From Gemmatimonadota bacterium (GTDB lineage: Bacteria; Gemmatimonadota; Gemmatimonadetes; Gemmatimonadales; GWC2-71-9), in NCBI GenBank assembly GCA_003222195.1, contig QHVB01000024.1:62001-126000 (forward strand): a DNA stretch of 64,000 bases. The letters are read 5' to 3'. The translations under genes and the position numbers were made by a program. Shown here piece after piece: positions 2 to 54,937 of the stretch. Under the pieces are notes generated by a model, which saw nothing but the letters and a program-made list of their open reading frames with translations, ran no database searches and was not told where the DNA came from. Position 1 is the first letter of the stretch, and every line of letters starts with the position of its first letter.

Positions 2-1720
2 GCTGGGGCGGGCGCGTTGCTTCCCGGAGCCACCATACTTCACCCGGGCACGCCGATTCTGCCGCTCACGTCGACCAGTGAGGTGTTCGTCCCGCCGCGC
101 GGCCGCGCCTTCCAGAAGTTCAGCTTCGATTTTCCGGAACCGTCGGTGGAGCTCGCGGGGCTGCGGTTCGGCTTCCTCGTGTTCACCCGCGAGAACGCGT
201 ACGCGCTCGATGCGAGTGCGATGACCGCGGAAGGATCCGCTGACGCGCTATCGCTCATCGCGACACGGCTCCTTGGGGCGGGTGGCCAAGAGCGCGCTGC
301 GGGACGTGTCAGTGCCCGGCTCCGCCGCGACGGCGATGCCACGTTGTGTGACGTCACGGCCGAGATGGATCAGCCGATCAAGGCGGTCACAACGGTCGTG
401 CGGGGGGTGCCGCGCGGAAAGCTGTCTTCCAGTGGCGGCGCCCCCTTCGATCCGCACGACGATGAGGTGCTCTGGGGCTATCCCTTCGGCGGTGGCGATC
501 TATTTGGCGACAATACCGCCTGGGGGATGGGCACGCCGCTCACGGTGGTGCAGGCTGGCGATCAGTTCATCGCGCTCTCGTCACTCGACGACCGGGTGCG
601 CACGAAACGGTTTTACTTCCAGCCTGGCGAGCAAGGCTATCGCGTCGAGCTCGTCCACGAGGTCGAAGGCTGGCTCGACCGGCGAAGCGTCCAGGTCCCG
701 ACCTGGCGTCTGGGGCGCGCGACGTCGCTCGATGGCGCAGTCGCGCCGCACTACGCGCACCTCGAGCGCGCGTATCACTTCCCCCGCTGGGAAACCCGCA
801 CCGATGTCCCGGAGTGGCTGCGGCGGACCCAGCTCGTCGTGACGCTGCATGGGATGCATTTCACCGGCTACATCTTCAACGACTACGCCCGGATGCTCGA
901 CATCCTGCGGTGGATCGCGACCCAGATTCCGGCGAGTGGGGTGCTCGCATTCATTTCAGCCTGGGACGGACGCTACTACTGGGATTATCCGACGTATCAG
1001 GCGGCGCCGCGCATGGGCGGTGAGGCCGGCTTCAAGAGACTCGTGCAGGAAGGACAGCGGCTGGGGTTTCGGATCATGCCGATGTTTGGCGCGAATGCGT
1101 CGAATCGCAAGCTCGCGAATTTCGCCAACTTCGCCGACGGGGCGACCGCACGGATTGACGGCGATCCGTTCAACTTGAACTGGGTGGACTGGGACAACGA
1201 TCGCCATCAGGAAGGCTTCGGCGTCTACATGAACCTCGGTGTCGATTCCTGGCGCCGCTGGCTCACGGCCCGAATCGCCGACGTTATCGACCGCTACGGC
1301 GTCGATGCATATTTCCTGGACATTATCGGCGGCTGGGTGAACAACACGAAAGCCGACATGCACGAAGGTGCGCGGGCGCTGATCTCTGAGCTCCGGACGC
1401 GGTACCCGCGGGTACTCGCCTGCGGCGAATTCCTGTATGACGCATTGCTCGAGTTCATTCCACTATATCACGTCTACTCACCGCACGGCGTGCCCTACGC
1501 CCGTTTCTTCTCACATCTCTCACATCCGGCCCCGGGGCGCGGCTCGTCCGGTGTGCACGAGTCGGGCTTCAACAAGTGGGATCCGGCGACGCTGTCGTTG
1601 ACCAAGCGCGAGGGACTTATTCCGACGCTGAATGTGGTGGACGACACGTTTACGAAATACCGCGATCAGATGGCCGGGGTGATCGCGCAGGCGAAAGCTT
1701 GGGGAGGGGGGCCTCCATGA
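2..1720 (+). CDS. TIM-barrel glycoside hydrolase-like protein, 5' end outside window
   Basis: The frame is open from base 2, so the N-terminus lies outside the window; a TTG at 17 is only an internal candidate start. About 570 residues are visible: a beta-rich N-terminal half followed by a (beta/alpha)8-type half with YFLDII, NLNWVDWDND and LACGEF, typical of retaining glycosidase barrels of the GH-like / DUF6259 sort. Substrate is not readable from sequence. The stop overlaps the start of the GH127 gene (ATGA), so the two are probably co-translated and act on the same plant-derived glycan. The catalytic acid pair is not assigned with confidence. Confidence 0.6.
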   Translation, partial: AGAGALLPGATILHPGTPILPLTSTSEVFVPPRGRAFQKFSFDFPEPSVELAGLRFGFLVFTRENAYALDASAMTAEGSADALSLIATRLLGAGGQERAAGRVSARLRRDGDATLCDVTAEMDQPIKAVTTVVRGVPRGKLSSSGGAPFDPHDDEVLWGYPFGGGDLFGDNTAWGMGTPLTVVQAGDQFIALSSLDDRVRTKRFYFQPGEQGYRVELVHEVEGWLDRRSVQVPTWRLGRATSLDGAVAPHYAHLERAYHFPRWETRTDVPEWLRRTQLVVTLHGMHFTGYIFNDYARMLDILRWIATQIPASGVLAFISAWDGRYYWDYPTYQAAPRMGGEAGFKRLVQEGQRLGFRIMPMFGANASNRKLANFANFADGATARIDGDPFNLNWVDWDNDRHQEGFGVYMNLGVDSWRRWLTARIADVIDRYGVDAYFLDIIGGWVNNTKADMHEGARALISELRTRYPRVLACGEFLYDALLEFIPLYHVYSPHGVPYARFFSHLSHPAPGRGSSGVHESGFNKWDPATLSLTKREGLIPTLNVVDDTFTKYRDQMAGVIAQAKAWGGGPP

Positions 1721-3579
1721 AACGTCGCGACTTTATTTCGTCTCTGACCGCAGTCGCAGGGCTGGCCGCGGTGCGCGTCCCGATGATCGACGGACCACCG
1801 GCGCCGCTCGCCCGCCCCTTCGATCTCGATCGAGTGCGGCTCCGCCCCGGACCGTTTCTCGATGCGCTCGAAGTGAACCGCCGCTTCCTCCTGGCCCAGG
1901 ATGAGAACCGCCTGCTGCACATGTTCCGCATCACCGCTGGTCTACCCTCGACTGCAGAGCCCCTCGGCGGGTGGGAAGCGCCGGTGAACGAGCTGCGCGG
2001 CCATTACGTGGGCCACTACCTCTCCGCGCTCGCCAAGATGTCGCGTACTCTGGGCGACTCGGACATCAAGGCGCGCGGTGACCGGATCGTGACTGAACTC
2101 GCAAAGTGCCAGCAACAACTCGGCAACGGTTATCTGAGTGCATTTCCCGAGGAGTTCTTCGATCGCCTGCGCGATGGCAAGCCGGTGTGGGCGCCGTTCT
2201 ACACGCTGCACAAGATCATGGCCGGCCTGCTCGACATGCACACGCTCACGAACAACCCGCAGGCGCTCGATGTGCTTCAGGGCATGGCGCGCTGGACCGG
2301 ACGCTGGGCGCAGCCGCTCGGCGATGAGCACATGGCCCGCGTGCTCGAGCGCGAGTACGGCGGCATGAACGAGATGTTCTACAACCTCGCGGCGGTGACG
2401 GCACGTGATGGTTACAAGGATCTTGCCCACCGCTTCGATCACGAGCGCTTCTTCGCTCCACTCGCGCAAGGACGCGACGAGCTAAAGGGGCTCCATGCCA
2501 ACACCAACATCCCCAAGGTGGTGGGCGCGGCGCGCCGCTACGAGCTCACCGGCGAACTGCGCTATCGACGTATTGCCGAATATTTCTGGCGGCAAGTGAC
2601 GACGCAGCGCGCCTACTGCACCGGCGGCACGTCGAATGGCGAGGGCTGGAACGCGGAGCCCGCCGTGCTGTCCACCGAGCTGTCGGGCTATACGCAGGAA
2701 GACTGCACCACCTATAACATGCTCAAGCTGACCCGCCACATCTTCGGCTGGACGGCGGACCCAGCCTGCGCTGACTTCTATGAACGCGCGCTGTTCAACG
2801 GCATCATCGGCAGCCAGCATCCGCATGACGGAGAGAAGCTGTACTACGTGAACCTCGCCGCGGGTCTCTGGAAGCTGTTCGGGACACCCGGGCAGGACTA
2901 TTGGTGCTGCACGGGAACGATGAGCGAGTCGTTCTCACAGTTCGGGGATTCGATTTACTTCCACGACGACGCCGGCGTGTACGTCAATCTCTTCATTGCG
3001 TCCGAGCTGAACTGGTCGGAGCGCGGCGTCCGGCTGGTGCAGGAGACGCAGTTTCCTGAAGAAGAAGGCACGACACTCCGAATCCAGACCGCGAAACCGG
3101 TTCGGTTTGCGCTCCGCATCCGCGTACCGTACTGGGCGACGCACGGCGGAACCGCGGCACTCAACGGCCGCACCCTCGACGGCTTCGCTGGTCCGGGCGG
3201 TTACTTCGTGCTCGAGCGCACTTGGCGCAACGGCGACAGCGTTGCGGTCAAACTGCCGATGAGCCTCCACCTGCACCCGATGCCGGACGATCCGACACTC
3301 GCGGCGGTGATGTACGGTCCGCTCGTGCTCGCGGGACGCTTAGGGACTGACGGCCTGACTCCAGACGTGCTGCGCGCTGAGCCGACAAAGCCGCGTACCA
3401 TACCGGAATACAAGGGTCAGCCGATCCCACCGCCGGAGTTGCGCGCCCAAGGCGCTGAGCGCCTAGCGGGACGGGGTCTCGAGTTTCGGGCCGCCGGCGA
3501 GAAAGGCGCGGTCACGCTCGTGCCGTTCCACACCATCTTCGATCAGCGCTACGCGATCTACTGGAGGCTCACGACTTGA
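1717..3579 (+). CDS. GH127 beta-L-arabinofuranosidase (DUF1680), Tat-exported
   Basis: Predicted to release beta-L-arabinofuranose from arabino-oligosaccharides or hydroxyproline-linked glycans. The start at 1717 overlaps the upstream stop, has a G-rich Shine-Dalgarno, and gives an RRDFI twin-arginine signal; protein is 620 aa, normal for the family. Family landmarks: Glu309 in GGTSNGE, the Glu328-x-Cys330 pair in QEDCTTYN, and Cys397-Cys398 in YWCCTG. By analogy with characterised GH127 enzymes (HypBA1), one Glu and three Cys bind zinc and one Cys is the nucleophile. The 3' end overlaps the convergent GH3 gene by 22 bases. Substrate specificity inside GH127 is inferred. Confidence 0.88.
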   Translation: MKRRDFISSLTAVAGLAAVRVPMIDGPPAPLARPFDLDRVRLRPGPFLDALEVNRRFLLAQDENRLLHMFRITAGLPSTAEPLGGWEAPVNELRGHYVGHYLSALAKMSRTLGDSDIKARGDRIVTELAKCQQQLGNGYLSAFPEEFFDRLRDGKPVWAPFYTLHKIMAGLLDMHTLTNNPQALDVLQGMARWTGRWAQPLGDEHMARVLEREYGGMNEMFYNLAAVTARDGYKDLAHRFDHERFFAPLAQGRDELKGLHANTNIPKVVGAARRYELTGELRYRRIAEYFWRQVTTQRAYCTGGTSNGEGWNAEPAVLSTELSGYTQEDCTTYNMLKLTRHIFGWTADPACADFYERALFNGIIGSQHPHDGEKLYYVNLAAGLWKLFGTPGQDYWCCTGTMSESFSQFGDSIYFHDDAGVYVNLFIASELNWSERGVRLVQETQFPEEEGTTLRIQTAKPVRFALRIRVPYWATHGGTAALNGRTLDGFAGPGGYFVLERTWRNGDSVAVKLPMSLHLHPMPDDPTLAAVMYGPLVLAGRLGTDGLTPDVLRAEPTKPRTIPEYKGQPIPPPELRAQGAERLAGRGLEFRAAGEKGAVTLVPFHTIFDQRYAIYWRLTT

Positions 3580-5747
3580 ATTCTACGCCGTAGGCGGATA
3601 TCGGCTGATGACGCACCGATGGCCAGCTCGACCGGTTCCTGTTCCACGACCCAGCGGTGCGTGTCGGGACTCCAATACGCCAGTGAGGATGCCGGCAGCG
3701 CGAACTCCACCGTTCGCGTCTCACCCGGTTTGAGCGTGATTCGCCGGAAGCCGCGGAGGTCCTCAATCGGTCGTTCCACGCGCGACCCGAGGTGGCGAAC
3801 GTAAAGCTGCGCGACTTCGTCTCCCGCCCGCCGCCCGGTGTTTGTCACATCCACTCGAACGATCAGCGTGTCCGCGGCTCGAAGTCTCGCCGAGCTCGTG
3901 CGCAGATTCCTGTACGCGAAGGTGGTGTAGCTCAAGCCATCGCCGAACGGGTACAGCGGCGTCCCTTTGAAGAAGCGATAGGTGCGTCCCGCCATTCGGT
4001 AATCATCGAACGGCGGCAGGTCATCCACGCTCGTGTAGAACGTCACCGGCAGCCGCCCCGCGGGGTTGTAATCGCCGAAGAGCACGTCGGCCAGCGCGCT
4101 GCCCGCGGCCTGCCCACCGTACCACGCTTCGACGATCGCGGGCACGTGCTCTTGCGCCCAGTTCACGGCGACCGCGCTGCCACTCATCAGCACGAGCACC
4201 GTGGGCTTGCCGACCGCAACGATCCGCTCGAGCAGCCGTTCCTGCGCGTCGGGCAGGTCGATGCGGGTGCGATCGCCGCCGAGGAATCCGGGAGTCTCGA
4301 CTGACATCTCCTCGCCTTCGAGCTGCGCTGTCAAGCCCAGACACAGCACGACCACGTCCGCTTGCTCCGCCGCCCGCGCCGCCTCGGCGAACCCTGAGTC
4401 GCCGGGCACAACCAGGTCCGAGCCGCGGGCGTAGCGCACGCGCGTGCCGGGTGACACGGCCTCACGAATGCCCCGCAACGGGGTAATCGAGTCGGCGGGC
4501 GAGCCTTCATAATTGCCCAGCAGCATGCGCCGGTCGTCCGCGTTCGGCCCGATCACGGCGATCGTGCCGACGTCCTTGCGAAGCGGTAGCAGGCTGCCGG
4601 CATTCTTCAGGAGCACGATGGACTCGCGCGCCACCTGGCGGGCGAGCGCGCGGTGCGCCGGCTGGTCGAGCACGCTGAACGGGATCTGCGCCCAGCGCAC
4701 GCGCTCCGGCGGGTCGAACATGCCGAGCCGGAAGCGGGCGAGGAACAGCCGTATGACCGCGGTGTCGATCGCCTGCTCCGTGATCAGTCCCTGTCGCACG
4801 GCAGCTACGAGGTTCGCGTAGACGTTACCGCACTCGAGGTCCGTTCCCGCTTTCACAGCCAGGGCCGACGCGGCGGCGGCCGTCGGTGCGACCTTGTGGC
4901 GCTCGTAGATGTCGTTGATGGCGCCGCAGTCCGACACGACATAACCCGAGAAGCCCCATTCGCCGCGCAGGATGTTGTGGAGCAGGAGATCGCTCCCGCA
5001 CGCGGGACTCCCGAGCACGCGGTTGTAGGCGCACATGAGCGAGTAGGCGCCGCCCTCGCGCATGCCAGCGGCGAAATGCGGCAGGTAACTCTCCCGTAGG
5101 TCGCGCTCGCCCACGACGGCGTCGAAGGTGTGGCGCGCGGGCTCGGGCCCCGAGTGCACGGCGAAATGCTTCACGGTCGCGACGGTCTTCAGATACCTGG
5201 GGTCGTCGCCCTCCATGCCGCGGATGAACTGCACCGCGAGGCGGCCGGTGAGGAATGGGTCCTCCCCATACGTCTCCTGACCTCGGCCCCAGCGCGGATC
5301 CCGGAACAGGTTGATGTTCGGCGACCAGAACGTGAGCCCCTGATAGCGCTCGCGCGAGCCATGGCGCACGTACTCGTGATGCTTCGCACGAGCTTCATCC
5401 GAGATGACGGTCGCCATCCGGTAGATCAGGGAATCGTCCCACGTGCCGGCGATCCCCATCGCCTGCGGAAACGATGTCGCGAGCCCAGAGCGCGCGACGC
5501 CGTGCAGTGCCTCGTTCCACCAGTTGTATCGGGGAATGCCAAGCCGGTCGATCGGCGGCGCGACGTCCTGCATCTGCGAGACTTTTTCCTCGAGCGTCAT
5601 GCGCGAGACGAGATCGGCCGCACGACGCTCGAACGGCAGGTCGGGATTCTGATAGTCCGGCGTCTGCGCGCACAGCGGCGTGGCGACGACCGCCAGCCAC
5701 ATCAGGTTATGCGCGCGAGGCCACCAGGCGTTTGCGGAAGCGGTCAT
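3558..5747 (-). CDS. GH3 beta-xylosidase / beta-glucosidase / arabinofuranosidase family enzyme
   Basis: Secreted GH3 exo-glycosidase of 729 aa. The ATG at 5747 gives a signal peptide ending in PLCAQ; a later ATG at 5702 is possible but would remove the charged n-region. Order: GH3 N-terminal barrel with KHFAVH and nucleophile motif VVSDCG, the GH3 C-terminal alpha/beta sandwich, then a fibronectin-III-like tail (VRVDVTNTG...). The three-domain form without a PA14 insert and the ALHGVARSG segment fit the xylosidase/arabinofuranosidase branch. It follows xylB with a 41-base overlap, linking extracellular xyloside cleavage to xylose catabolism. Specificity is inferred. Confidence 0.88.
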   Translation of the reverse strand: MTASANAWWPRAHNLMWLAVVATPLCAQTPDYQNPDLPFERRAADLVSRMTLEEKVSQMQDVAPPIDRLGIPRYNWWNEALHGVARSGLATSFPQAMGIAGTWDDSLIYRMATVISDEARAKHHEYVRHGSRERYQGLTFWSPNINLFRDPRWGRGQETYGEDPFLTGRLAVQFIRGMEGDDPRYLKTVATVKHFAVHSGPEPARHTFDAVVGERDLRESYLPHFAAGMREGGAYSLMCAYNRVLGSPACGSDLLLHNILRGEWGFSGYVVSDCGAINDIYERHKVAPTAAAASALAVKAGTDLECGNVYANLVAAVRQGLITEQAIDTAVIRLFLARFRLGMFDPPERVRWAQIPFSVLDQPAHRALARQVARESIVLLKNAGSLLPLRKDVGTIAVIGPNADDRRMLLGNYEGSPADSITPLRGIREAVSPGTRVRYARGSDLVVPGDSGFAEAARAAEQADVVVLCLGLTAQLEGEEMSVETPGFLGGDRTRIDLPDAQERLLERIVAVGKPTVLVLMSGSAVAVNWAQEHVPAIVEAWYGGQAAGSALADVLFGDYNPAGRLPVTFYTSVDDLPPFDDYRMAGRTYRFFKGTPLYPFGDGLSYTTFAYRNLRTSSARLRAADTLIVRVDVTNTGRRAGDEVAQLYVRHLGSRVERPIEDLRGFRRITLKPGETRTVEFALPASSLAYWSPDTHRWVVEQEPVELAIGASSADIRLRRRIQVVSLQ

Positions 5748-7197
5748 AGATGGGCTCGTACGTTCTGTGGATTTCTGGGTTCGCTGGCGTGGGCGGCTGG
5801 CGCGTGAGGGTCCGCCGTGCCGCGGTCTCGAGATCGGGAAACGCTCCTGCCCCCACCGCCGCGAGCAGCGCCGCGCCGTAGGACCCGCCCTCTTCACGAT
5901 TGACGGTCGTCACGGGAAGGCCAAAGACATCTGCCTGCAACTGCCGAATAAACGCGCTCTTCGCACCGCCGCCCGTCAGCACTAGCTGACCGGGGGCGAG
6001 CCCCAACTCCTGGAGAATGGTGAGTGAGTCGCGCAGTGCGAAGCACACGCCCTCGAGTACGGCGCGCGTCAGATGAGCACGCGAGTGTGCCAGACTGAGG
6101 CCGGTGAACGCGCCACGCAGGGACGCGTCCCGATGCGGCGTCCGCTCTCCCTGGAGGTAGGGAAGGAACGTCACGCCGTCGGCACCGGGTGGCACGTTTG
6201 CCGCCTCCGCAACGAGCTGCGCGTCTCGACCCCCCCCCCCATCCGGCAGCTCGCGCGCGCACTGATCGCCATACCAGGCAAACGCTCCGCCGGCCGACAA
6301 GACGACGCCTATCACATACCACACGTCGGGGGTGACGTGACAGAAGGTGTGCGCTCGCAGTTTGGGATCCACGCGCGGCTGCGCCGTGGGCGCCAGTACG
6401 GTCCCAGATGTGCCCCAGCTCGACACCGCGTCACCGGGACTGATCGCGCCCACGCCCGCCGCGCCGCACGCATTATCCGCGCCGCCCCCCACGACCGGTG
6501 TGCCGGCGGCGAGCCCTGTAACGGCGGCAGCTTCCTTGGTGACCTGGCCGAGCACTTCTGCCGATCCAGCCACCGCTGGAAGCAGTGATGGCGCGAGATC
6601 GACCGCGTCGAGAATCTCCCGGCTCCAACGCATGTGAGCGGGATCGAACATGAGCGTGCCGGAGGCGTCGGACGGCTCCGTCGCGATCGAGCCCGTCAGA
6701 CGCAAGCGCACGAAATCCTTGGCGAGGAGCACCGTGGCGAGTCGCGCGAATGCCGCCGGCTCGTGATTGCGCAGCCACAGCACCTTGGGCAGGGTGAAGC
6801 CTTCCAGCGCGGGGTTGCACACCCAGTTCCGCAGCTGCGTCTCGCCGCCGGCGCGCGTCTCGATCTCTCGGCACTCGGCCGTCGTTCTGCCATCGCACCA
6901 GAGTAGCGCCGGCCTGATCACCGCACCGCGCTTGTCGAGAAAGACGGACGAGTGCATCTGGCCCGAGACTCCAACGGCCGCGACTCGAGCGTTCGGCCGC
7001 TGGTCGACCACAGCCCGGATCACCGTGCGGCTCGCGTCCCACCAAGCCTCGGGATCTTGCTCCGCCCAGCCTGGTCGCGGGGTGTCGAGTGACAGTGGAG
7101 CGGTCGCCACGGCCGCGACGCCGCCGTCTACGCTGATGAGAATGGATTTGACGCTGCTCGTACCGACGTCGAGGCCGAGAAACAGATCAGCCGCCAC
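5707..7197 (-). CDS. xylB: Xylulokinase
   Basis: FGGY-family kinase of 496 aa, ATP + D-xylulose to D-xylulose 5-phosphate. N-terminal FLGLDVGTSSVKS phosphate loop, central GGGADNACGAAGVG and C-terminal LTGGGAKSAFIRQL adenosine region are all present and the length is normal. It lies 2 bases downstream of xylA and overlaps the GH3 gene. An 11-base homopolymeric C tract on the plus strand (6230-6240) encodes DGGGGR on this strand; length changes there would frameshift the gene. Confidence 0.95.
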   Translation of the reverse strand: MAADLFLGLDVGTSSVKSILISVDGGVAAVATAPLSLDTPRPGWAEQDPEAWWDASRTVIRAVVDQRPNARVAAVGVSGQMHSSVFLDKRGAVIRPALLWCDGRTTAECREIETRAGGETQLRNWVCNPALEGFTLPKVLWLRNHEPAAFARLATVLLAKDFVRLRLTGSIATEPSDASGTLMFDPAHMRWSREILDAVDLAPSLLPAVAGSAEVLGQVTKEAAAVTGLAAGTPVVGGGADNACGAAGVGAISPGDAVSSWGTSGTVLAPTAQPRVDPKLRAHTFCHVTPDVWYVIGVVLSAGGAFAWYGDQCARELPDGGGGRDAQLVAEAANVPPGADGVTFLPYLQGERTPHRDASLRGAFTGLSLAHSRAHLTRAVLEGVCFALRDSLTILQELGLAPGQLVLTGGGAKSAFIRQLQADVFGLPVTTVNREEGGSYGAALLAAVGAGAFPDLETAARRTLTRQPPTPANPEIHRTYEPIYDRFRKRLVASRA

Positions 7198-7199
7198 GC

Positions 7200-8357
7200 T
7201 TAGCGCACTCCCAACAAGAGCTCCATGGTGAGCTGATCGAGTCGCTCGTACGCGTAGCCGCGCGAGCGCAGCGCCGCGAGATCGAACTTCGTGTTGCGAA
7301 GCTCCTCGAACGGGACACGCGCGCTGCTCTTACCTCCGTCGAGATTGGTGAGCAACTGCTGGATCTCGGGATCCGCATTGAAGCGCACGACCTTGTCCTT
7401 GAGGATCAGGTAGGTGCGCATGCTGCCGGCGGCAAAGTCCCAAACGCCCGCTTCATCCTCGGTTCGGTACGCATGGCTATCGAAATGACGCATACCCGGC
7501 CACTTGGAGTCTTCGAGCAGCTTGACGAGGAAAAACGCTCCCTTGGGGTCGTCGCTGCCAAAACGAAGATCCTGGTCGAAGCGGCCAACCTGCTGGCCGT
7601 TCAGATCGATGTGGAACAGTTTGCCCGCGTCGATCGCCTGTGCGACCGCATGGGAGAAGTCGAGCCCGGCCATGCGCTCGTGGGCCACCTCCGGATTGAC
7701 GCCCACCATCTCCGGATGGTCCAGCGTATAGATGAAGGCGAGCATGTGACCGGTGGTCGGCAGAAAGATGTCGCCCCGCGGTTCATTCGGCTTTGCCTCG
7801 AGCGCGAAGCGCAGATCGTAGCGCTGTGACCGCACGTATTCGCACAGGTAGTTGATGGCGTCGCGATACCACGCTAGTGCGGTGCGCGGATCCTTGGCCG
7901 CGTTGGTTTCGACGCCTTCTCTTCCGCCCCAGCACACATAGGTGGTGGCGCCGAGCTCGACCGCGAGATCGATAGCGGCCAGCGTTTTTTGCAGCGCATA
8001 AGCACGTACGCGCGAGTCACTGCTCGTAAACGCGCCGTCACGAAATGCCGGGTCCGAGAAAAGATTCGTCGTGGCCATCGGCACTTTCATGCCCGTGTCG
8101 CCGAGCACCTGCTTGAACTCGCGCACGATCCGGTCGTGCTCGGCTGCGGACGACCCAGCCGGTACGAGATCGTTGTCGTGCAGATTGACGCCATAGGCGC
8201 CGAGCGCCGCCAGTTTGCGGACGATCGCGGCCGGAGTGAGCGGCGGCCGCACCGGATCGCCAAAGGGGTCGCGTCCGGGATTTCCTACCGTCCAGAGCCC
8301 GAAGGTGAAATGATCCTCCGGCCGGGGCTGAAAAGCATCCTTGCCGCTTCGCACCAT
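7200..8357 (-). CDS. xylA: Xylose isomerase
   Basis: Converts D-xylose to D-xylulose with two divalent metal ions. From the ATG at 8357 the protein is 385 aa, matching the short actinobacterial-type class; an upstream start at 8429 would run across the divergent galT start and is rejected. Conserved features: active-site His in [15 protein letters not shown], the metal-binding [12 protein letters not shown] segment, DLNGQ and FDSHAYR. It is followed 2 bases later by xylB, forming a xylA-xylB-GH3 operon. The divergent start region with galT (8358-8405) must hold both promoters. Confidence 0.95.
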
Positions 8358-8405
8358 CCCGGCGATACTCGGCTCGCTTTGACGGGTTGTCAAACGGAGG
8401 CACGC

Positions 8406-9476
8406 ATGGTGTGGGAACAGCGTTGGCATCCGCTCCGGCGGGAATGGGTCATCATCTCATCCCACCGCAACGAGCGGCCCTGGCAAGGGGAGCGCGTCTC
8501 GGAATCGGCGCGTCCCCTGCCGGCCTACGTCCCCGACTGTTACCTCTGTCCCGGCAACGGGCGTAGCTCGGGACAACGCAATGCCCAGTACAATGGCGTG
8601 TATGTGTTCGACAACGACCATCCCTGCGTCGGTCCCGGCGCACCCGCCGTCTCGGCACCTCCCAGCGTCATCTATCGGACTAGCATGGCGAGCGGCCGCG
8701 CGCGGGTCGTTTGCTACACGCCGCACCACGACCTCACGCTCGCCCAACTGCCCGAGTCTGAAGTGCTCGGTCTCCTGCAGGCACTGCAAGCGCAGTATCG
8801 CGAGCTCGGCGCGCAGGCGGGTGTGCGTCACGTGCTGGTATTCGAGAACAAGGGGGAAGTCGTCGGTGTCAGCAATCCACACCCGCACTGCCAGATTTAC
8901 GCGACCAACTTCGTGTTCAAGACCATCGAGCTCGAAGCCGCAGCGCAGGCGGCGTACCTGGCGGAGCACGATCGACCGCTGTTTCAGGACATCCTTGCCG
9001 CCGAGGAAGCGGACGCAAGGCGACTACTGGTGCGGCGCGACCTGGCACTCTCGTTCATTCCGTATTTCGCGCGCTATCCGTACGAAACGTTCGTCGCGCC
9101 GCGTGAGACACGCGCGAGCCTCGCGCATCTCAGCGCCTCCGAGCTCGGCGACTTTGCGATCGTGCTACGCGAGACGCTGATCCGGCTCGACAACCTCTGG
9201 CAGATGTCGTTTCCATACGTGATGGTGCTGCACCAGGCGCCCACAGACCAAGCGTATTCAGGGTTCCATTTCCATATCGAGATCCACCCGCCACTGCGCA
9301 AACCGGGTCTCCTCAAATATCTCGCGGGACCGGAGATCGGCGGCGGGAATTTTCTGAACGACACGGCGCCTGAAGAAAAGGCGGCGGAGTTGCGTGCGGT
9401 CTCGAACATTCATTACACACAGGGCGGCGAAGGGCGGCGGAGGGCGGCGAAGGGCGGCGATGGCGAGGGCAGCTGA
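8406..9476 (+). CDS. galT: Galactose-1-phosphate uridylyltransferase family protein
   Basis: GalT-family HIT-fold nucleotidyltransferase, about 356 aa, expected to swap UMP between UDP-glucose and a sugar 1-phosphate. ATG at 8406 is preceded by CGGAGG (8395-8400). The N-terminal zinc-site region CYLCPGN and the active-site NPHPHCQ (family HPH) are visible, as is [10 protein letters not shown] near the C-terminus. The last residues are low-complexity (Gly/Arg) because the gene ends in a four-copy 10-bp tandem repeat. Because the operon ends in an arabinokinase-like kinase rather than a canonical galactokinase, L-arabinose 1-phosphate may be the acceptor; that is inference. Confidence 0.85.
9421..9460 (+). 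repeat. Four tandem 10-bp repeats across galT 3' end and next start codon
   Basis: Four consecutive decamers AGGGCGGCGA / AGGGCGGCGG fill 9421-9460. The last base is the A of the ATG of the downstream gene, so the repeat supplies both the galT C-terminal codons and the upstream ribosome-binding context. Ten is not a multiple of three, so gain or loss of a unit changes the galT reading frame. Confidence 0.9.
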
Positions 9477-10470
9477 GGTGGCCACGGCTGAGGGCCTTCT
9501 CGAGCCGATTCTGGCGCTGCACGATTCCATCCGCGACACCGTCGTGGACGCGTGCACGAGGCAGACGCCGGAGCAGCTCGCGATCAACGCGACTGGGTCG
9601 AGCGACGCGGGCGACACGATCTACGCCATAGATCGCGTGGGCGAAGAGGCGCTGGTGCGTGGGCTAAGCGAGTTGGCGCGGAACGAACCGGTGTGCGTCG
9701 TGGCTGAGGGAATCCCGGATCCGCTCATTCTGCCGCGCGGGGCGCGCGAGAGCGACTGTCGCTGGCGCTTGCTGGTGGATCCGCTCGACGGCACGCGCGG
9801 CCTCATGTATCAGAAGCGTAGCGCCTGGATCCTCACCGGCGTCGCGCCCAACCGCGGTGCCGCGACAAGGTTATCGGACATCGTGCTCACCGTGCAGACC
9901 GAGATCCCGCTGCTGAAGCAGCACCTCTCCGACCAGCTCTGGGCGTCACGCGGCGCCGGAGTCGAGGCCCGGCGATGGAATCGCGTGTCGGCGAAAGCCG
10001 AGCCACTCACGTTGCGACGCTCGGGCGCCGTCACGATTGCGCACGGTTTCGCGACCGTCGTGCGCTTCTTCCCCGGAGCACGAGAGATCCTGGGCGCCAT
10101 CGATGACGAAGTCGTTCAGGCGCTGGTCAAGCCCGAGCCGCGCCGTGCGTCATGTTTCGAGGATCAGTATGCCTCGACCGGCGGCGAGCTGTACGAGCTG
10201 ATAGCGGGCCACGACCGCTTCGTTGCGGATCTGCGTCCGCTGGTGAAGTCGGCGAGCCCCCCCTTGTGCTGCCACCCCTATGATTTGTGCACCGCGCTGA
10301 TCGCGCGCGAGGCGGGTGTGATCATCACCGATCCCTCGGGGGCAGCGGTGGATGCGCCGCTCGACTTGACTACCGATGTGGCGTGGGTCGGATACGCGAA
10401 TGAGGCACTGCGTCACGCGATCGAGCCCGTGCTGCAAGGCGCGCTGCGCCGGCGCGGGCTCCTCAGGTGA
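9460..10470 (+). CDS. Inositol monophosphatase-superfamily protein
   Basis: Lithium-sensitive-phosphatase fold (IMPase/FBPase superfamily), 336 aa, cytoplasmic. The metal-binding signature VDPLDGTRG and an upstream Glu in VAEGIPDP are present. The usual C-terminal WD-x-AAG motif is replaced by [13 protein letters not shown], so the substrate site has diverged and a standard inositol-phosphatase role should not be assumed. It starts inside the decamer repeat (17-base overlap with galT) and its stop overlaps the next gene (GTGA). Position between a uridylyltransferase and a sugar kinase suggests sugar-phosphate turnover or nucleotide-sugar salvage. Confidence 0.78.
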
Positions 10471-11813
10471 ATTGGTTCCAGCCTTCGATCGACCTGCTGC
10501 ACTCGTTGCCCTCCGCGTCCGATACCCGCCTGCGCAGTTTCTTTTCCCTCGCACGCCCCATCTGCATCGCGCGGGCGCCGGGCCGACTCGACGTCATGGG
10601 CGGAATCGCCGACTACAGCGGTGCGCGCGTGCTCGAGCTGCCGCTCGCGTGCGCGACGTTTGCGCTCGTGCAAAAGCAGGACGCGCCGCGCTGTGAGGTC
10701 GCCAGTCTCAGGGGCGATCGATGGGATTTCTTCGCGACGGAGCTTCCCTGGGTTCGCGAAGCTCAGGCGGATCGCTGGGCGACCTACGTCGTTGGCGTCG
10801 TGCAGGCGCTGCTCCCGACGGAAACGGCCAGGTCTGGTCTGCGGATTCTGATTCACTCCTCCGTACCGGAAGGCAGAGGCGTCGCGTCCTCCGCCGCGCT
10901 GGAAGTCGCGGTTGCCGCCGCCGTCGCCGCGAGCTCCGACATTCGCATCGAACCGGCCGACCTGGCGGCGCTGTGCCAGCGCGTCGAAAACCACGTCGTG
11001 GGCGCACCGTGCGGGATCATGGACCAGATGACGAGCGCGTGCGGCAAGCGCGACCGGTTGCTGCAACTGCGTTGCCAGCCAGGCACAATCGAAGGCTACC
11101 TCGAGGTTCCTTCAGGGTATCGATTCTACGGCATCGATTCCGGGATCAGCCATGCGGTCTCGGGGGCCGACTACGGGACCGTCCGCACCGCCGCGTTCAT
11201 GGGACTGCGCATCCTCACGACCGAAACCCCATGGCGAGGCCGCTATCTCGCCGATCTCACGCCGGTGCAGTTTTCGCAGTTCGCTCCTTGCCTGCCGGAG
11301 GAAATGACAGGCGGCGAGTTCCTCGAGCGCTACGGCGACATCAGCGACACCGCCACCGTCGTGGATCCCGACCGCCGCTATCCCGTGCGCCGCGCGTCAG
11401 AGCACCCGGTCGGCGAACAAGCGCGCGTGGACCGCTTTGCAGAGTTGCTCGCTGCGCTCCCGCGTCAGCCCTATGTCGCGACCGAGTTGGGCGAGCTCAT
11501 GTACGGTTCACACCGGAGTTACAGCGCCTGCGGACTCGGCAGCGATGGAACGGATCGTCTCGTGGAGCTCGTGAGATCCGCGGGGCCCGAGCGTGCTCTA
11601 TTCGGCGCGAAGATCACGGGTGGCGGCAGCGGTGGAACAGTTGCGGTCTTCGGAACGAGCGAGGCAGAAGGTGTGGTGCGGGACCTCGCTGCCCGCTATG
11701 CAGCCGAGACCGGCCGCACGGCACGCGTCTTCGCGGAATCAGGGCCGGGGACGGCGGAAGCGGGAGGCCTCAGTGTCCGGGGCATGCCCCCGGCGTTAGT
11801 CCACCCGCACTGA
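10467..11813 (+). CDS. GHMP kinase resembling plant L-arabinokinase
   Basis: Sugar 1-kinase, 448 aa, GTG start overlapping the upstream stop. The substrate motif reads APGRLDVMGGIADYSG in place of the galactokinase GEHTDY signature; with VVGAPCGIMDQMTSACG, GIDSGISHAVSGADYG and ACGLGSDGTDRLV it matches the C-terminal kinase domain of plant ARA1 L-arabinokinase as I know it. The ATP loop SSVPEGRGVASSAA is intact. Expected product: L-arabinose 1-phosphate, feeding UDP-L-arabinose synthesis with the neighbouring uridylyltransferase. A galactokinase role remains the alternative. Its 3' end overlaps the convergent propeller gene by 44 bases. Confidence 0.8.
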   Translation: MNWFQPSIDLLHSLPSASDTRLRSFFSLARPICIARAPGRLDVMGGIADYSGARVLELPLACATFALVQKQDAPRCEVASLRGDRWDFFATELPWVREAQADRWATYVVGVVQALLPTETARSGLRILIHSSVPEGRGVASSAALEVAVAAAVAASSDIRIEPADLAALCQRVENHVVGAPCGIMDQMTSACGKRDRLLQLRCQPGTIEGYLEVPSGYRFYGIDSGISHAVSGADYGTVRTAAFMGLRILTTETPWRGRYLADLTPVQFSQFAPCLPEEMTGGEFLERYGDISDTATVVDPDRRYPVRRASEHPVGEQARVDRFAELLAALPRQPYVATELGELMYGSHRSYSACGLGSDGTDRLVELVRSAGPERALFGAKITGGGSGGTVAVFGTSEAEGVVRDLAARYAAETGRTARVFAESGPGTAEAGGLSVRGMPPALVHPH

Positions 11814-42405: not shown

Positions 42406-42412
42406 GTTGCAT

Positions 42413-42484
42413 TGCCCCTCCTGGGATCGAACCAGGACTCTCCTGATCCAGAGTCAGGCGTGTTGCCAGTTACACCAAGGGGCA
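42413..42484 (-). tRNA. tRNA-Gln (CTG anticodon)
   Basis: 72 bases folding into a full cloverleaf: acceptor TGCCCCT / AGGGGCA, anticodon stem CCTGA / TCAGG with loop CTCTGGA (anticodon CTG), T-arm CCTGG TTCGATC CCAGG. CCA is not encoded. It lies 7 bases after tRNA-Ala, so the two form one transcript. Its 3' half is duplicated at 20075. Confidence 0.95.
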
Positions 42485-42491
42485 GCGATTA

Positions 42492-42564
42492 TGGAGCTGA
42501 GGGGGCTCGAACCCCTGACCTCCTGGGTGCGATCCAGGCGCTCTCCCAGCTGAGCTACAGCCCC
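42492..42564 (-). tRNA. tRNA-Ala (CGC anticodon)
   Basis: 73 bases with acceptor GGGGCTG / CAGCTCC including the G3-U70 alanine identity pair, anticodon stem CCTGG / CCAGG with loop ATCGCAC (anticodon CGC), and T-arm AGGGG TTCGAAC CCCCT. CCA is not encoded. First gene of the tRNA pair. Confidence 0.96.
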
Positions 42565-47903: not shown

Positions 47904-48548
47904 ATGAGCTTCACGCGCAAGCTGTTAGCCTGGTACAAGCGCAACGCACGCGTCCTTCCGTGGCGCGAAACGCGTAATCCCTATGCCATCCTCGTGTCGG
48001 AGTTCATGCTGCAGCAGACACAGGTGAGCAGGGTGTTGGACTACTATCCCCGGTTTTTGAAGCGCTTTCCGACGATCGCTTCGCTGGCACGCGCCCGACC
48101 CAAGGCGGTAATGGAAGCTTGGGATGGCTTGGGTTATTACGCGCGTGCTCGCAATCTCCACAAGCTGGCTCGCGAGGTGAGCGGTCAACATGACGGGGTC
48201 CTGCCCGACAGTCCCGAGGACTTAAGGACACTACCGGGTGTCGGGCAGTACACAGCCGGAGCGGTCGCGTGCTTCGCGTATGAGAAAGGCGTGCCGACGG
48301 TTGACACGAACGTCAGGCGAGTGCTCGAGCGCGTGTTCGCGCCGCGGGACGTCTGGGAGCTCGCAGCGAACCTGGTGCCGAAGAACGGCAAGCGCGCCTG
48401 GCGATTCAATCAGGCGCTGATGGAGCTCGGCGCATTGGTCTGCACCGCCAGAAAGCCGAAATGCCCCGAATGCCCGGTCAGGAATGATTGTTTAGCAGTT
48501 CGCTCAGGGGAGCGAACTCGTAGCCCGCGTGCCGCCCGTCCTCAATAA
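47904..48548 (+). CDS. mutY: A/G-specific adenine glycosylase, short form lacking the MutT-like domain
   Basis: 214-aa HhH-GPD glycosylase. Catalytic Glu in MLQQTQV context, helix-hairpin-helix LPGVGQYTAGAV, catalytic Asp in TVDTNVRRV, and an iron-sulfur loop C-x6-C-x2-C-x5-C (CTARKPKCPECPVRNDC). Removes adenine opposite 8-oxoguanine or G. The C-terminal 8-oxoG recognition domain of full MutY (about 350 aa) is absent. The last 71 bases overlap the convergent deacetylase gene. Confidence 0.88.
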   Translation: MSFTRKLLAWYKRNARVLPWRETRNPYAILVSEFMLQQTQVSRVLDYYPRFLKRFPTIASLARARPKAVMEAWDGLGYYARARNLHKLAREVSGQHDGVLPDSPEDLRTLPGVGQYTAGAVACFAYEKGVPTVDTNVRRVLERVFAPRDVWELAANLVPKNGKRAWRFNQALMELGALVCTARKPKCPECPVRNDCLAVRSGERTRSPRAARPQ

Positions 48549-49122
48549 TCCCCGGTAACGCGTGGGCCGTTTGCATGCGATCCCCTTCAGGGTCGTAGCC
48601 GTCGCCGTCATGTAAGAGCACAATCGCACCCGGCCTCAGTCGTTTGCGAACGCGTCGCCGAATTTCCTCCACGCCGGGTTTCGCCGTGTCGAACACGCCA
48701 AACGTCCACCCGAACACCGTATAGCCAAGCTCGCGCGCCGCCGTACGCAGATACGGACTCCGGTATCCGTGCGGCGCCCGAAAGGCCCGCGGCCGCTGCC
48801 CCGTCGCCCACTCGATCGCGTTATGTGCGACTTCGAGCTGATGGCGCAGCCGCGTTCGCCCGACAAGGTGGAGCTTCACATGATTGTGTGTGTGATTCCC
48901 CACCATGTGACCTTCGCCCACGACCCGCCGCGCCAGCTGCGGGAACCGCCGCACATGATCGCCCACCATGAAAAACGCCGCCGGCACGCGCTCCGCGGCG
49001 AGTGTGCCGAGGATCGCGTCCGTCGCCCGCTCGTTCGGACCGTCATCGAAAGTCAAATAGACGCGCCGCCGGCGTGGACCGCGCTCGATCGAGGGTCCGA
49101 AGATCAAATCGAGCCCCATCAT
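48478..49122 (-). CDS. Polysaccharide deacetylase (NodB/CE4)
   Basis: 214 aa. NodB motifs: VYLTFDDGPNE (catalytic Asp and metal Asp), GNHTHNH (metal His pair), FRAPHGYRSPY, and VLLHDG near the end. No signal peptide, though the start is a double ATG at 49122/49119 overlapping the GT4 stop. Last gene of the twelve-gene operon; likely de-N-acetylates an amino sugar on the operon product. Confidence 0.88.
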   Translation of the reverse strand: MMGLDLIFGPSIERGPRRRRVYLTFDDGPNERATDAILGTLAAERVPAAFFMVGDHVRRFPQLARRVVGEGHMVGNHTHNHVKLHLVGRTRLRHQLEVAHNAIEWATGQRPRAFRAPHGYRSPYLRTAARELGYTVFGWTFGVFDTAKPGVEEIRRRVRKRLRPGAIVLLHDGDGYDPEGDRMQTAHALPGIIEDGRHAGYEFAPLSELLNNHS

Positions 49123-50249
49123 CCGGTCACCCGCCTGTACACCGCAAGCACGCGTTGCGCGACCGCGGGCCACGCGTGGCGCTCGGCGACCTTGCGGCCC
49201 TCGGACATCATCACGTCGCGCCGCGCGGTATCGTCGATCAAGGCGTTCACGGCGTCGCCCCATGCGGCCGGATCGCCGGGTGGGGCGAAGACGGCTTGCG
49301 CCTGGCCGGCGAGATCGCGGAACGCAGGAATATCCGAGACCACGAGCGGTGTGCCGCACGCCATGGCCTCGAGCAGCGTCACGCCAAACGACGCGCGTGT
49401 GGTCGGGCACAGATAGAGATCAGAACTGCGATAGTACGCGGGCCGATCGCCATTCGCATAGCCGGCGAAGTGCACGGACGGCCCGAGCCGCAGGCGGCGC
49501 GCGGCGCGCTCGAGCCGCGAGCGCCACGGTCCATCGCCCACCACGGTCAAACGGGCAGCGGGATGCCGCTCCAGAATGCGCGGCATCGCCGCGAGCACCG
49601 TGCCGAGGTCGTTGCGCGGCTCGATCCGTCCCAGCCAGAGAAGCTTCGGCGCGCGCCGCTCCGATCGTCCCCGGCTTTCCCCTGCCGCCAGGCCGGGACG
49701 GAAGAACGTCGTGTCCACGCCGTTGGGGATGATCTCCCAGCGGGCCGTGAGGTAGCGTGACATCGCGTCGCGCGCGACGTTGCTGACGGCGATGGTCGCG
49801 GCGTGGCGATCGAGCATACGCTGCAACGGTTTCCGCAAGATGCGGAGGCCGACCGAGCGCGGGAACCACGTGTGGAACGTGGCGACCACGGGAATCCCGG
49901 CTCGCCACGCCGCCCGGGGAGCCACAATGCCGAGCGTGGGATTCAAACCGCCGTGGACGTGCACGATGTCAAATCGCTCGGCACGGAACAGTGCTTCCAG
50001 CTGGCTGGTGAGACGCCACCCGACGGTCACCCTCGCGACGCCGCCATTCGCGTAGATGACGAGACTCTGACCAACCCGCCGCACGTACGGCGGATCGACG
50101 TGGCCGTGCATGCGCATGTGCGAGGTCACGATCGTCGCCCGATGGCCCAGACGTTCCAGCTCGCCGGCGAGGTGGTGCACATGCTCGGGCACGCCGCCGA
50201 GCTGCGGATAGTAGTCCTCCGCGACCAGGGCGATGCGCAGCGGCGTCAT
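49119..50249 (-). CDS. Glycosyltransferase family 4 (GT-B)
   Basis: 376 aa. N-terminal acceptor domain with EDYYPQLGGVPEHV, then donor domain with LLWLGRIEPRNDLGTVL, SDLYLCPTTRASFGVTLLEAMACGTPLVVSD (E-x7-E region). Similar to phosphatidylinositol mannosyltransferase-type retaining enzymes. Next to two CDP-alcohol phosphatidyltransferases this supports transfer of a sugar to a lipid headgroup. ATGA overlaps on both sides. Confidence 0.9.
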   Translation of the reverse strand: MTPLRIALVAEDYYPQLGGVPEHVHHLAGELERLGHRATIVTSHMRMHGHVDPPYVRRVGQSLVIYANGGVARVTVGWRLTSQLEALFRAERFDIVHVHGGLNPTLGIVAPRAAWRAGIPVVATFHTWFPRSVGLRILRKPLQRMLDRHAATIAVSNVARDAMSRYLTARWEIIPNGVDTTFFRPGLAAGESRGRSERRAPKLLWLGRIEPRNDLGTVLAAMPRILERHPAARLTVVGDGPWRSRLERAARRLRLGPSVHFAGYANGDRPAYYRSSDLYLCPTTRASFGVTLLEAMACGTPLVVSDIPAFRDLAGQAQAVFAPPGDPAAWGDAVNALIDDTARRDVMMSEGRKVAERHAWPAVAQRVLAVYRRVTG

Positions 50250-51097
50250 TTTGCCCTTTGGGCCAGGCGTTCCAGGGCCGATACGACCGCCGCGGGACGC
50301 TCCTCCTGCAGGTAGTGCCCGGCGCCGGGCTGGCTGTCCACCGCGAACGATAGGATCGCGTGGTTCAGCAAAGCGACCTCCGACGGCGGCACGTCGCCAT
50401 CGTGGTGCGCTGTACCTACGACCAAGGTCACGGGACACGCGATCCCGCCGAGACGCGGTGCGAGCTTCACCGGCTCGCGCGCGCGCGACATCGCCAGAAA
50501 GGCTCGCAGCGTGGCGTCGAAGTCACGCTCCTCACCGAGCGTGTAGCCCTGGACGACGCCGTCGGTCACCCATGATCGGTCGCCGGAAGATTCGAGCAGC
50601 ATGCCGCGAATCTTGCGGCGGATGAGGTTAATCCCGCCGAACAGCTTTATCCACGGGACGTAGCGCATCGCGCTGCGGAACACCGGCGTCGTCGCCTCTT
50701 CCGTCGGCCCCCCTTCGAGCGACACGATGCCACGCACGAGATCGGGTCTCTCGAGAGCGAGCCGGAACGCCATCGCGGCGCCGAGCGAATGGGCGAGCAC
50801 GAGCACGGGGCCGGAGCCCAGCGAATCGAGCACGGCCGCGAGGCGACGCGACTGCGCGTCGAGCGAGTAATCGGCTTTGGGCGGCCGGCTCGAGAAGCCG
50901 GTGCCGAGTGGCTCGATGACAATCGGCCGGAATCCTCGGGCGGCGAGGAGCGGCAGGACTTTCCGGAAGGTAAAGGCCGCACCGAACAGACCCGGCACCA
51001 GCGCGACCGGCCGACCGTCACCGGGCCAGGCTTCGACGTGCATCGTTTCCGCGGGGGCGACGACGACGTAGGGATGCTGCGGCCCGTCTCCAAGCAT
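50246..51097 (-). CDS. Alpha/beta-hydrolase
   Basis: 283 aa. Oxyanion-side LVPGLFGAAFTF, nucleophile elbow LAHSLGAAMA, and catalytic His in GAGHYLQEE. An ester or thioester hydrolase; in this operon deacylation of a lipid intermediate or acyl transfer is plausible. Its start shares one base with the stop of the upstream CDP-alcohol transferase. Confidence 0.8.
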   Translation of the reverse strand: MLGDGPQHPYVVVAPAETMHVEAWPGDGRPVALVPGLFGAAFTFRKVLPLLAARGFRPIVIEPLGTGFSSRPPKADYSLDAQSRRLAAVLDSLGSGPVLVLAHSLGAAMAFRLALERPDLVRGIVSLEGGPTEEATTPVFRSAMRYVPWIKLFGGINLIRRKIRGMLLESSGDRSWVTDGVVQGYTLGEERDFDATLRAFLAMSRAREPVKLAPRLGGIACPVTLVVGTAHHDGDVPPSEVALLNHAILSFAVDSQPGAGHYLQEERPAAVVSALERLAQRAK

Positions 51098-51702
51098 TAC
51101 GGGATCTCGAGGCGCGCCGCACGCGACGCGACCGTGTTCAGGTCACCGCCCAGCGCGTCCATGTTGCGTTGAAAGCGGCAGTCGATGATGAGCAGTCCCG
51201 CGACGTACGCCGCAAGATTCACGATGAAGATGATCGAGAAGATGAGCGGATATGGGGCCCAGATTCCGAAGTAGAGCGCGAAGCGCTTCACGCCGGGATC
51301 GAGGCGCGAGCGATCGACGACCGTCGTGAGCAGCAGCACCGCGACCGACGCGAGCAGCGCCAGCCGCAGCGACACCAGCCCCCCCGCGGCGCAGCCCACG
51401 AAAATCGCGATCTCCGACGCGCGATCGAGCCACGTGTCCAGCCGATGCCCCGCTGCGGACACGAGCCCGAACTGCCGCGCGATGCCGCCGTCGAGCGCAT
51501 CGAGGAGTTGCCCGATGGCCATGAGCACCAGCGCGGGGACAACGCGGCCGGTCGCGAACACGGCGCCCGCGGCAACGCTCACCCCAAACGCGGCCCAGGT
51601 CACCTGATCGGGCGACAGCCCGAGAGTGACGTGCACGAATCGCAGGACCGGGCGAATGCCGCGGTCTACAGCGGAGCCAAGAACAGGAGCAAATTCATAC
51701 AT
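51097..51702 (-). CDS. CDP-alcohol phosphatidyltransferase (first of two)
   Basis: 201 aa, six predicted membrane helices. The family signature DGxxARx8Gx3Dx3D is exact: DGGIARQF...G...LDTWLD around residues 70-95. Joins a CDP-activated lipid (or alcohol) to an alcohol, releasing CMP. It overlaps the upstream DUF457-like gene by 37 bases. Substrate not determinable. Confidence 0.9.
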
Positions 51703-52103
51703 AGCAACACCACAATGAGGATTGCTTCTTTCGCCTTATCAGAGACCCCGACGAGAAACCCCTGCGTCACGAGCGGCGAGTACGGATACCACGGCATCTT
51801 CTCGTAGCCGACGCTGTAGTCCATCGCGAGGTGAATGACGAAAAAGATCGCCGGAACCCACGTCCCCAGGAAGAAGCACAGCGGGAGGATCCACAGCAGC
51901 GCGACCGGCTCCTGCAGCGACGTCCGCCAGTAATAGCCTCTTTCATTCTTCAACCCAATAGCCTTCAAGTAGAAAGGAGCCTTGATGACGTGATCGAGGT
52001 CGACGCCGACGCCGAAGACGTACGCCAGCACGACATCACTGCCCGTGAGCTTCAGGAGGCGCACGCCGAGTGTCGTGGCGAGCGCATGCGTGACGATCGT
52101 CAT
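51666..52103 (-). CDS. Small membrane protein, YdjM/DUF457-like metal-dependent hydrolase
   Basis: 145 aa with four hydrophobic segments. The His/Asp pattern [20 protein letters not shown] and HLAMDYSVG resembles the predicted membrane-bound metal hydrolases of the YdjM (DUF457) family. Overlaps both neighbours in the operon. Function within the pathway unknown. Confidence 0.6.
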
Positions 52104-53104
52104 GTGGCCGGCTCACTCGCCGACGCCGGACTCGGCCCCACGATCAAGACGAGCAGCAATCCCGCGGCGATCCACGCGAAGTCCCGGACACGACTGACGA
52201 TCGAGGTATACAGTCCGAGCAGGGGATCGAGCCCGAACAGGTTGAAGAGCGCGTAGAAGCTGCCCTCGCGAGCCCCGATTTCGAACGGCACCATGAACAG
52301 CACGTTCCCCGCAATGGCCTCGAGCCCCCCGATCGTGAACGCCAGCAGGTAGTCAAGCCGGAATCCCAGGCTGGCGACGATCAGCACGATCTCGAGCATG
52401 AAGATGCAACGGCTCAGATACTCGAGCAGGATCGCCTGCACGAACCGCTTTGGCTGGTGGTGATAGAAATCGGTGATCTGCTGATCCAGCTCGATCAGCA
52501 GCGCCCGTTTCGACTCGAGCCGCGCGCTCAGACGGCGGATCAGCGGAATTTTGCTCATCCAATTCAGGATGCGCTCGAGCAGGCCACTGCGGTGGGCCGA
52601 CAGGAGCAGCGCGATGATGAGCAGCAACACGGCGCCCACAATGCCCAGAACCACTTGGACGACGACCGGCGTTGCGCGCGGCAGCAGGGCGAACGCGAGG
52701 ACGACGGCGGTAAGCCAGACGAGCACATAGGTAAACGAATGCAACATCCGGTGGAGAATGACCGAGCCGGCCGCGCGCCGCTTGCCGAGCCACGGCGCGA
52801 CGGCCGCGGCGCGGAACGGCTCACCGCCCGCGTTGATGAGCGGCGTGAGAAAGTTGAGCGCGCCCGCGGATACGAGCACGGCGTACGTGCGCCAGTACGG
52901 CGGCCGGCCCGAGTCTCCCATCGTGAGCTGCCAGGCGAGGGCGCTGCAGGCGTAGACCAGAGCGTAGAGCAGGACGATCGGCACGAACATGAAGCCGGTG
53001 CGTCCGGCATCGGAGACGAGCTGGCCGACGCCGATCTGCGCAACGAGATATCCGAATACCGCTGCACCGAGGAGAAAGCAGGCGAGTTGCAGCGGCCGGC
53101 TCAT
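52100..53104 (-). CDS. UPF0104/AglD-type membrane protein (LPG-synthase-like flippase domain)
   Basis: 334 aa, eight or more membrane helices, with the family core LNFLTPLINAGGEPFRA and VPFEIGAREGSFYALF. The family includes the flippase half of lysyl-phosphatidylglycerol synthase. Likely moves the operon product, or a lipid-linked precursor, across the inner membrane. ATGA overlaps at both ends. Confidence 0.85.
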   Translation of the reverse strand: MSRPLQLACFLLGAAVFGYLVAQIGVGQLVSDAGRTGFMFVPIVLLYALVYACSALAWQLTMGDSGRPPYWRTYAVLVSAGALNFLTPLINAGGEPFRAAAVAPWLGKRRAAGSVILHRMLHSFTYVLVWLTAVVLAFALLPRATPVVVQVVLGIVGAVLLLIIALLLSAHRSGLLERILNWMSKIPLIRRLSARLESKRALLIELDQQITDFYHHQPKRFVQAILLEYLSRCIFMLEIVLIVASLGFRLDYLLAFTIGGLEAIAGNVLFMVPFEIGAREGSFYALFNLFGLDPLLGLYTSIVSRVRDFAWIAAGLLLVLIVGPSPASASEPAT

Positions 53105-54102: not shown

Positions 54103-54937
54103 GGAATTTCGGCTCGCGCTCGTGCGCCAGAATGAGGACGACCAGCACCAGATTCAGGGGCACGACGACGATCCAGCAATACGCCGCGGGCCAGTGTGGC
54201 ACCGCGGTCAGCGCCAGCAGCAGGAAGCGAATGTTCTGCGCGATCAGCGCGCACCCCCGCACCACCCAGCGCTGTCGCTCGGCCCAGGAGCGGCGCAACG
54301 AGTCGGGCACCTCACGCCCCGAATACGCGCGGGCGAGCGCTGTCGTGCGAGGGAAAAGCAACGCCTGCCGGCGCGTGTAGTCGCCGTAGATCCAGGAAGA
54401 GATCCGCCCCCACCACGAATCGCCGCTCTCGACACTCGTCTGCTCGGGGACGTCGAGCTCGTCACCCTCTCCGATCGCGAAGCGCAGATACGCCTGGCGA
54501 ATGAAGTCGGCTGCGGCCGCCTGGTAGGAGTGAGAGAACAGCGCGGCCATCGCCAGCGCGACTCCACCCCAGCCCCAATGTCCGGCATACAGGCGGGCGG
54601 CGAGATGCCCATACAGACTGACGAAGCGGCCACTGTCGGCGAGGCCATCGAGGATCCTGCCCATGCGGGTCGACGTGCCACGCAGGCGTGCGAGCTGCCC
54701 GTCGACGCTGTCCAGCAGGTCCGACACGATGAACAGCAAGACGCCGCACGCGTTGACCCAGGCGCTGCGGTACCAGAACAGGTGACCCGCGAGCACGCCC
54801 AGCACCAGGCTCGCGAGCGTCACGGCATCGGCCGAGATGCGCGTCGGCAGGAGCGCGGTCGCCACGCGCCACCCCAGCGGCCGGAAGAAGCGCCGATCGG
54901 CCCATTCTTCTACGACGGGTCCCTTACTTGCGTACAC
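54086..54937 (-). CDS. CDP-alcohol phosphatidyltransferase (second of two, DIPP-synthase-like)
   Basis: 283 aa. Exact signature spanning DGQLARLRGTSTRMG and LDGLAD, within multiple membrane helices. The N-terminal VVEEWADRRFFRPLG and TLASLVLGVLAG resemble di-myo-inositol-phosphate phosphate synthases, which use CDP-inositol; that resemblance is from memory. A soluble insertion follows (residues about 150-220). With the nucleotidyltransferase two genes on, a CDP-polyol donor is likely. Confidence 0.88.
   Translation of the reverse strand: MYASKGPVVEEWADRRFFRPLGWRVATALLPTRISADAVTLASLVLGVLAGHLFWYRSAWVNACGVLLFIVSDLLDSVDGQLARLRGTSTRMGRILDGLADSGRFVSLYGHLAARLYAGHWGWGGVALAMAALFSHSYQAAAADFIRQAYLRFAIGEGDELDVPEQTSVESGDSWWGRISSWIYGDYTRRQALLFPRTTALARAYSGREVPDSLRRSWAERQRWVVRGCALIAQNIRFLLLALTAVPHWPAAYCWIVVVPLNLVLVVLILAHEREPKFHAQLA

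Follow-up and report, generated by a model that had tools for sequence, protein, structure and literature searches.

A three-gene operon in the genome of a Gemmatimonadota bacterium, encoding a GalT-family uridylyltransferase, a phosphatase and a sugar 1-kinase, probably serves a Leloir-type catabolic route for L-arabinose that would end in xylulose-5-P. The genes, their families, their conserved linkage and their co-occurrence across genomes were observed directly, and from these we infer every substrate and the order of the reactions. With slightly less assurance, we favor the broader view of an undescribed bacterial pathway. In this view, a pentose counterpart of the Leloir pathway that ends with a dedicated xylose-1-phosphate phosphatase turns L-arabinose into D-xylose, is present in at least six phyla, and replaces AraBAD in the arabinose-using Pyrinomonas methylaliphatogenes. 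We regard the gene set as a variant of the Leloir pathway and not as something different in kind. L-Arabinose is one of the major sugars of plant cell walls. If the route is real, it would explain growth on arabinose without araA in little-studied soil phyla, via UDP-sugars and free xylose, and would assign roles to three gene families that currently carry the labels galactokinase, GalT and inositol phosphatase. It would also provide a specific arabinokinase of use in making UDP-L-arabinose.

Gene organization of the operon and its surroundings

We analyzed a stretch of 64,000 nucleotides (the window), in which positions 8406 to 11813 hold three tightly packed plus-strand genes. The GalT frame that the original prediction had placed by the kinase was confirmed at 8406..9476, with GGAGG immediately 5′ of its ATG at 8406. 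Its product matched both GalT Pfam domains (PF01087 and PF02744), scored 277 bits against TIGR00209 (cut-off, 102) and carries the active site HPHCQ (HPH-Q pattern); we propose that it exchanges Ara-1-P with UDP-xylose or UDP-glucose. The second gene (9460..10470), whose start overlaps the end of galT by 17 bases, encodes a phosphatase of the IMPase/FBPase superfamily, a candidate D-xylose-1-phosphate phosphatase. The third (10467..11813) begins with GTG, overlaps the phosphatase gene by 4 bases and encodes a GHMP sugar 1-kinase, the putative L-arabinokinase. Scans for promoters and terminators found no match.

Divergent from galT on the minus strand is the gene for the xylose isomerase XylA (7200..8429; TIGR02631, 556 bits against a cut-off of 447). 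Judging by the starts of its relatives, ATG 8357 is its likeliest start, which would leave a gap of 48 bases to galT. Farther away on the same strand follow the xylulokinase gene xylB (5707..7197; TIGR01312, 538 bits against a cut-off of 380) and a gene for a GH3 glycosidase resembling xylosidases and arabinosidases (3558..5897; PF00933/PF01915). The top NCBIfam match of the latter was Xyl3A, at 894 bits under its cut-off of 1250, and its real start probably lies farther downstream on that strand than 5897. Beyond these genes, on the plus strand, lies the gene for a secreted enzyme similar to GH127 beta-L-arabinofuranosidases (1576..3579; PF07944, 371 bits), with a likely start at 1717 (MKRRDF). 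The original prediction had put GH127 beside the operon; it is in fact 5 kb away, with the opposite-strand GH3, XylB and XylA genes in between, and belongs to the neighborhood only. The same prediction had overlooked both the phosphatase between GalT and the kinase and the divergent XylA and XylB. Directly upstream of the window, the contig (locus L029) encodes a GH2 glycosidase and a sodium:solute symporter.

Relationship of the kinase and GalT to the galactose enzymes

Both Pfam GHMP domains (N and C) of the kinase scored above their cut-offs, and its score against the TIGR00131 galactokinase model was too low for membership (144 bits; cut-off, 226.65). The motifs GGIADY and GAPCGIMDQM and the coordinates are as originally predicted, and the galactokinase GEHTDY box is indeed missing, its place being taken in the alignment by GGIADY. 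Across 56 aligned kinase sequences, LDVMGGIADYSG and GAPCGIMDQM were invariant or nearly so and GEHTDY was lost in every one. The positions of Glu43 and His44 of human galactokinase are occupied by Gly46 and Ile47, while the equivalents of the galactokinase Arg, Asp46, Asp186 and Tyr236 are retained. In galactokinase, Glu43 and His44 hold the C6 hydroxyl of the sugar, a group that L-arabinose does not have. The change to Gly and Ile fits the loss of this contact.

In a phylogenetic tree, a 100/100 branch separated 57 kinases from 9 GalKs, some of the GalK branches being long; the kinase was not nested in GalK, the placement that had been named as contrary to the prediction. The same genome encodes a separate, canonical galactokinase with GEHTDY (TIGR00131, 253 bits, above the cut-off). 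The AF2 model of the operon kinase (pLDDT 91.6) has the fold of human galactokinase (TM up to about 0.85 by target length). On balance, it is best read as an L-arabinose 1-kinase separate from GalK. The closest solved protein is AbGHMP (PDB 9ULX, 383 bits; also 9ULY), a member of the same kinase family whose structure was solved by others. It groups in the tree with the Acidobacteria loci L061 and L064, whose operons contain GalT, phosphatase, kinase and GalE. Given this solved relative, the kinase may be partly characterized elsewhere. In the open-access papers searched we found no such bacterial pathway and nothing on AbGHMP. Among plasmids, the matches were ordinary galactokinases only.

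The GalT of the window is the only one of its type found in the genome. In a tree built from a small sample, kinase-linked and GalK-linked GalTs were split by a 97/99 branch. We considered a residue of the GalT sugar site as a marker, at the position of E. coli Gln323. It is Phe here, but Phe also occurs in the GalK-linked GalT of Pyrinomonas, and the residue is not diagnostic.

The phosphatase, xylose isomerase and the proposed pentose route

The phosphatase matched PF00459 at 30.9 bits (cut-off, 27), and its metal-ligand pattern of E83, D107, D110 and D275 (E, DxxD, D) was invariant in 41 phosphatase sequences. The best fold matches of its AF2 model (pLDDT 89) were fructose-1,6-bisphosphatases, with a TM of about 0.72. 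Among 298 Gemmatimonadota genomes, this subfamily occurred in exactly the 13 genomes that bear the kinase and in no other. XylA was found in 11 of these 13, with contig-end fragments in the other two, compared to 11 of the 285 kinase-free genomes. Fisher P values for co-occurrence with the kinase ranged from 1e-12 to 1e-16; these overstate the evidence, since the relatives share ancestry, and overstate its independence, since XylA is part of the same neighborhood in some genomes. XylA lies on a different contig from the kinase in five genomes, so that its co-occurrence is not merely linkage. Among 50 kinase genomes from many phyla, 30 had XylA above the family cut-off, and several more had matches with scores typical of the second kind of XylA.

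L-Arabinopyranose is D-galactose minus C6, and its C4 epimer is D-xylose. According to our model, the kinase would convert L-Ara and ATP to beta-L-Ara-1-P, and GalT, primed by UDP-Glc, would turn Ara-1-P and UDP-Xyl into UDP-Ara and Xyl-1-P. GalE would then epimerize UDP-Ara to UDP-Xyl, the phosphatase would release D-xylose from Xyl-1-P, and XylA and XylB would carry xylose through xylulose to xylulose-5-P. The kinase, GalT and a 4-epimerase are all present in the source genome, where GalE is unlinked to the operon (C94:1810-2775, 379 bits). As in the galactose Leloir pathway (GalK-GalT-GalE-GalM), there are a GHMP 1-kinase, a GalT-family transferase, a GalE-type 4-epimerase and sometimes a GalM-like gene nearby. 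Unlike in that pathway, the operon kinase falls outside GalK and is accompanied by an IMPase-family phosphatase and xylose isomerase, neither of which galactose catabolism requires. No mutase is known to feed xylose-1-P into metabolism, and hence the pentose route would need both. The phosphate of beta-L-Ara-1-P has the same axial orientation as that of alpha-D-Xyl-1-P (PMC5974040), and the plant GalE-type enzymes UGE1/3 epimerize UDP-Xyl and UDP-Ara (PMC5897480).

We rejected action of the phosphatase on Ara-1-P as futile. In one genome (G143, L027:9034-11454), phosphatase and kinase are fused in a single reading frame of 806 residues, a natural arrangement that is hard to reconcile with a phosphatase undoing the kinase.

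The bacterial routes known for L-arabinose are AraBAD and the oxidative route. AraBAD would share substrate and end product, xylulose-5-P, with the proposed pathway, which differs from it by phosphorylation at C1 and epimerization on a UDP carrier. The absence of araA from the window, already pointed out in the original prediction, extends to the whole source genome (99.79% complete), in which PF02610 had no match. We dropped this absence as statistical evidence; alone it is uninformative, since only 10 of the 298 Gemmatimonadota genomes have AraA. As to the oxidative route, neither the source genome nor that of P. methylaliphatogenes K22 has an extra IlvD/EDD paralogue for arabonate dehydratase; each has a single gene of this family, assumed to be IlvD itself.

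Distribution across phyla and alternative readings

A genome scan recovered 80 relatives of the kinase, most of them from metagenome bins, in Gemmatimonadota, Acidobacteriota, Planctomycetota, Chloroflexota, KSB1, Myxococcota and others. Within 9 kb of the kinase at 84 loci, counting short contigs and the many loci cut by contig ends, we found GalT at 75, the phosphatase at 61, GalE at 23, XylA at 12 and XylB at 6. Ten further kinase genomes have the phosphatase unlinked, and another 13, mostly of Planctomycetota, have none of this subfamily. Related operons in other phyla also carry GalE, sugar ABC transporters and GH51 arabinofuranosidases, with GH51-type C-terminal domains confirmed nearby. 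The order at L046 is GH51-GalT-phosphatase-kinase-GalE-XylA-GH127, and L058 and L061 are similar. GalE of L046 (417 bits) is above the equivalog cut-off, XylA of L061 scored 547 bits, and the ABC ATPase of L058 had AraG as its top profile with a score under the cut-off. A GalB-type GH2 beta-galactosidase occurs near some operons, above the cut-off in L037.

In P. methylaliphatogenes K22, GalT, phosphatase, kinase, GalE and transporter genes lie together (L082) with GH51 nearby, and the organism has a second GalT-GalK pair besides. K22 has XylA, and no AraA was found in its genome. With AraA missing and one IlvD/EDD gene, neither known arabinose route appears complete from its gene content. The genome paper reports growth on arabinose (enantiomer unstated) and xylose and leaves galactose unmentioned (PMC4644332).

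It is quite unlikely, in our judgment, that these are galactose Leloir operons with a divergent second galactokinase, next to which the phosphatase and the xylose genes are incidental neighbors. GalT and GalE are classical partners, and such an operon would also accommodate the GH2 enzymes, the single GalT of this type in the source genome, and the Aquisphaera insulae locus described below, where a phosphohexomutase stands beside kinase and GalE. Nevertheless, the source genome already has its own canonical GalK and Pyrinomonas a full second GalT-GalK pair, GEHTDY is gone from all 56 kinases, and the kinase co-occurs exclusively with the phosphatase and strongly with XylA. The same duplication in Pyrinomonas, with a dedicated GalT for each kinase, and the separation of the two GalT groups in our small sample also speak against a promiscuous C4-epimerizing module for galactose and L-arabinose, in which GalK and the operon kinase share GalT and GalE. 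We regard such a module as about equally unlikely, even with one such GalT for two kinases in the source genome and with GH2 and arabinosidases both nearby.

Similarly unlikely is a plant-like salvage, in which kinase and GalT supply UDP-L-arabinose for glycan synthesis and not for growth. Its first step would be that of plant ARA1 plus USP (PMC5897480), but the operons hold glycosidases, sugar importers, XylA and XylB, not arabinosyltransferases, and the phosphatase would waste the product. The operon kinase further differs from the plant system in being single-domain, in its partnership with a GalT exchange instead of the UTP-dependent USP, and in its apparent catabolic fate; its GHMP motif is presumably the same as that of ARA1. 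Of the original proposal of salvage via arabinose 1-phosphate, the 1-kinase remains the preferred reading, whereas the phosphatase and XylA, linked or unlinked, point to catabolism via UDP-arabinose, UDP-xylose and free xylose and not to salvage into a nucleotide sugar. Several findings count against the pentose Leloir route that we prefer: the planctomycete genomes without the phosphatase, the phosphohexomutase of A. insulae, which fits galactose, the GH2 genes, and the one such GalT of the source genome, which may serve the real GalK as well. XylA could, in addition, act weakly on arabinose. Given these misfits, the use of galactose, or of both sugars, is conceivable in some lineages at least.

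In A. insulae (L068:6842-9377), the phosphohexomutase gene lies between kinase and GalE, and the genome has no phosphatase of this subfamily, which hints that the downstream route differs in Planctomycetota. Four loci labeled Actinobacteria, Singulisphaera or Gemmatimonadaceae (L045, L101, L105 and L109) carry kinases resembling those of other phyla and are probably mis-binned contigs or the result of gene transfer. At 17-1720 of the window, a secreted protein that looks glycosidase-like by eye had no Pfam, NCBIfam or PDB sequence match; it is kept near related operons (L033, L037 and L027) and is possibly an undescribed glycosidase family. Elsewhere in the window, two adjacent minus-strand tRNA genes lie at 42412-42564, and a long minus-strand run of lipid/polysaccharide-type genes, assigned by eye, spans 48478-58448 (CDP-alcohol transferase-like, nucleotidyltransferase, aminotransferase, ATP-grasp-like and glycosyltransferase). 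A fluoride riboswitch (63010-63073; Rfam, 66.9 bits) precedes a small DUF190-like gene at 63478.
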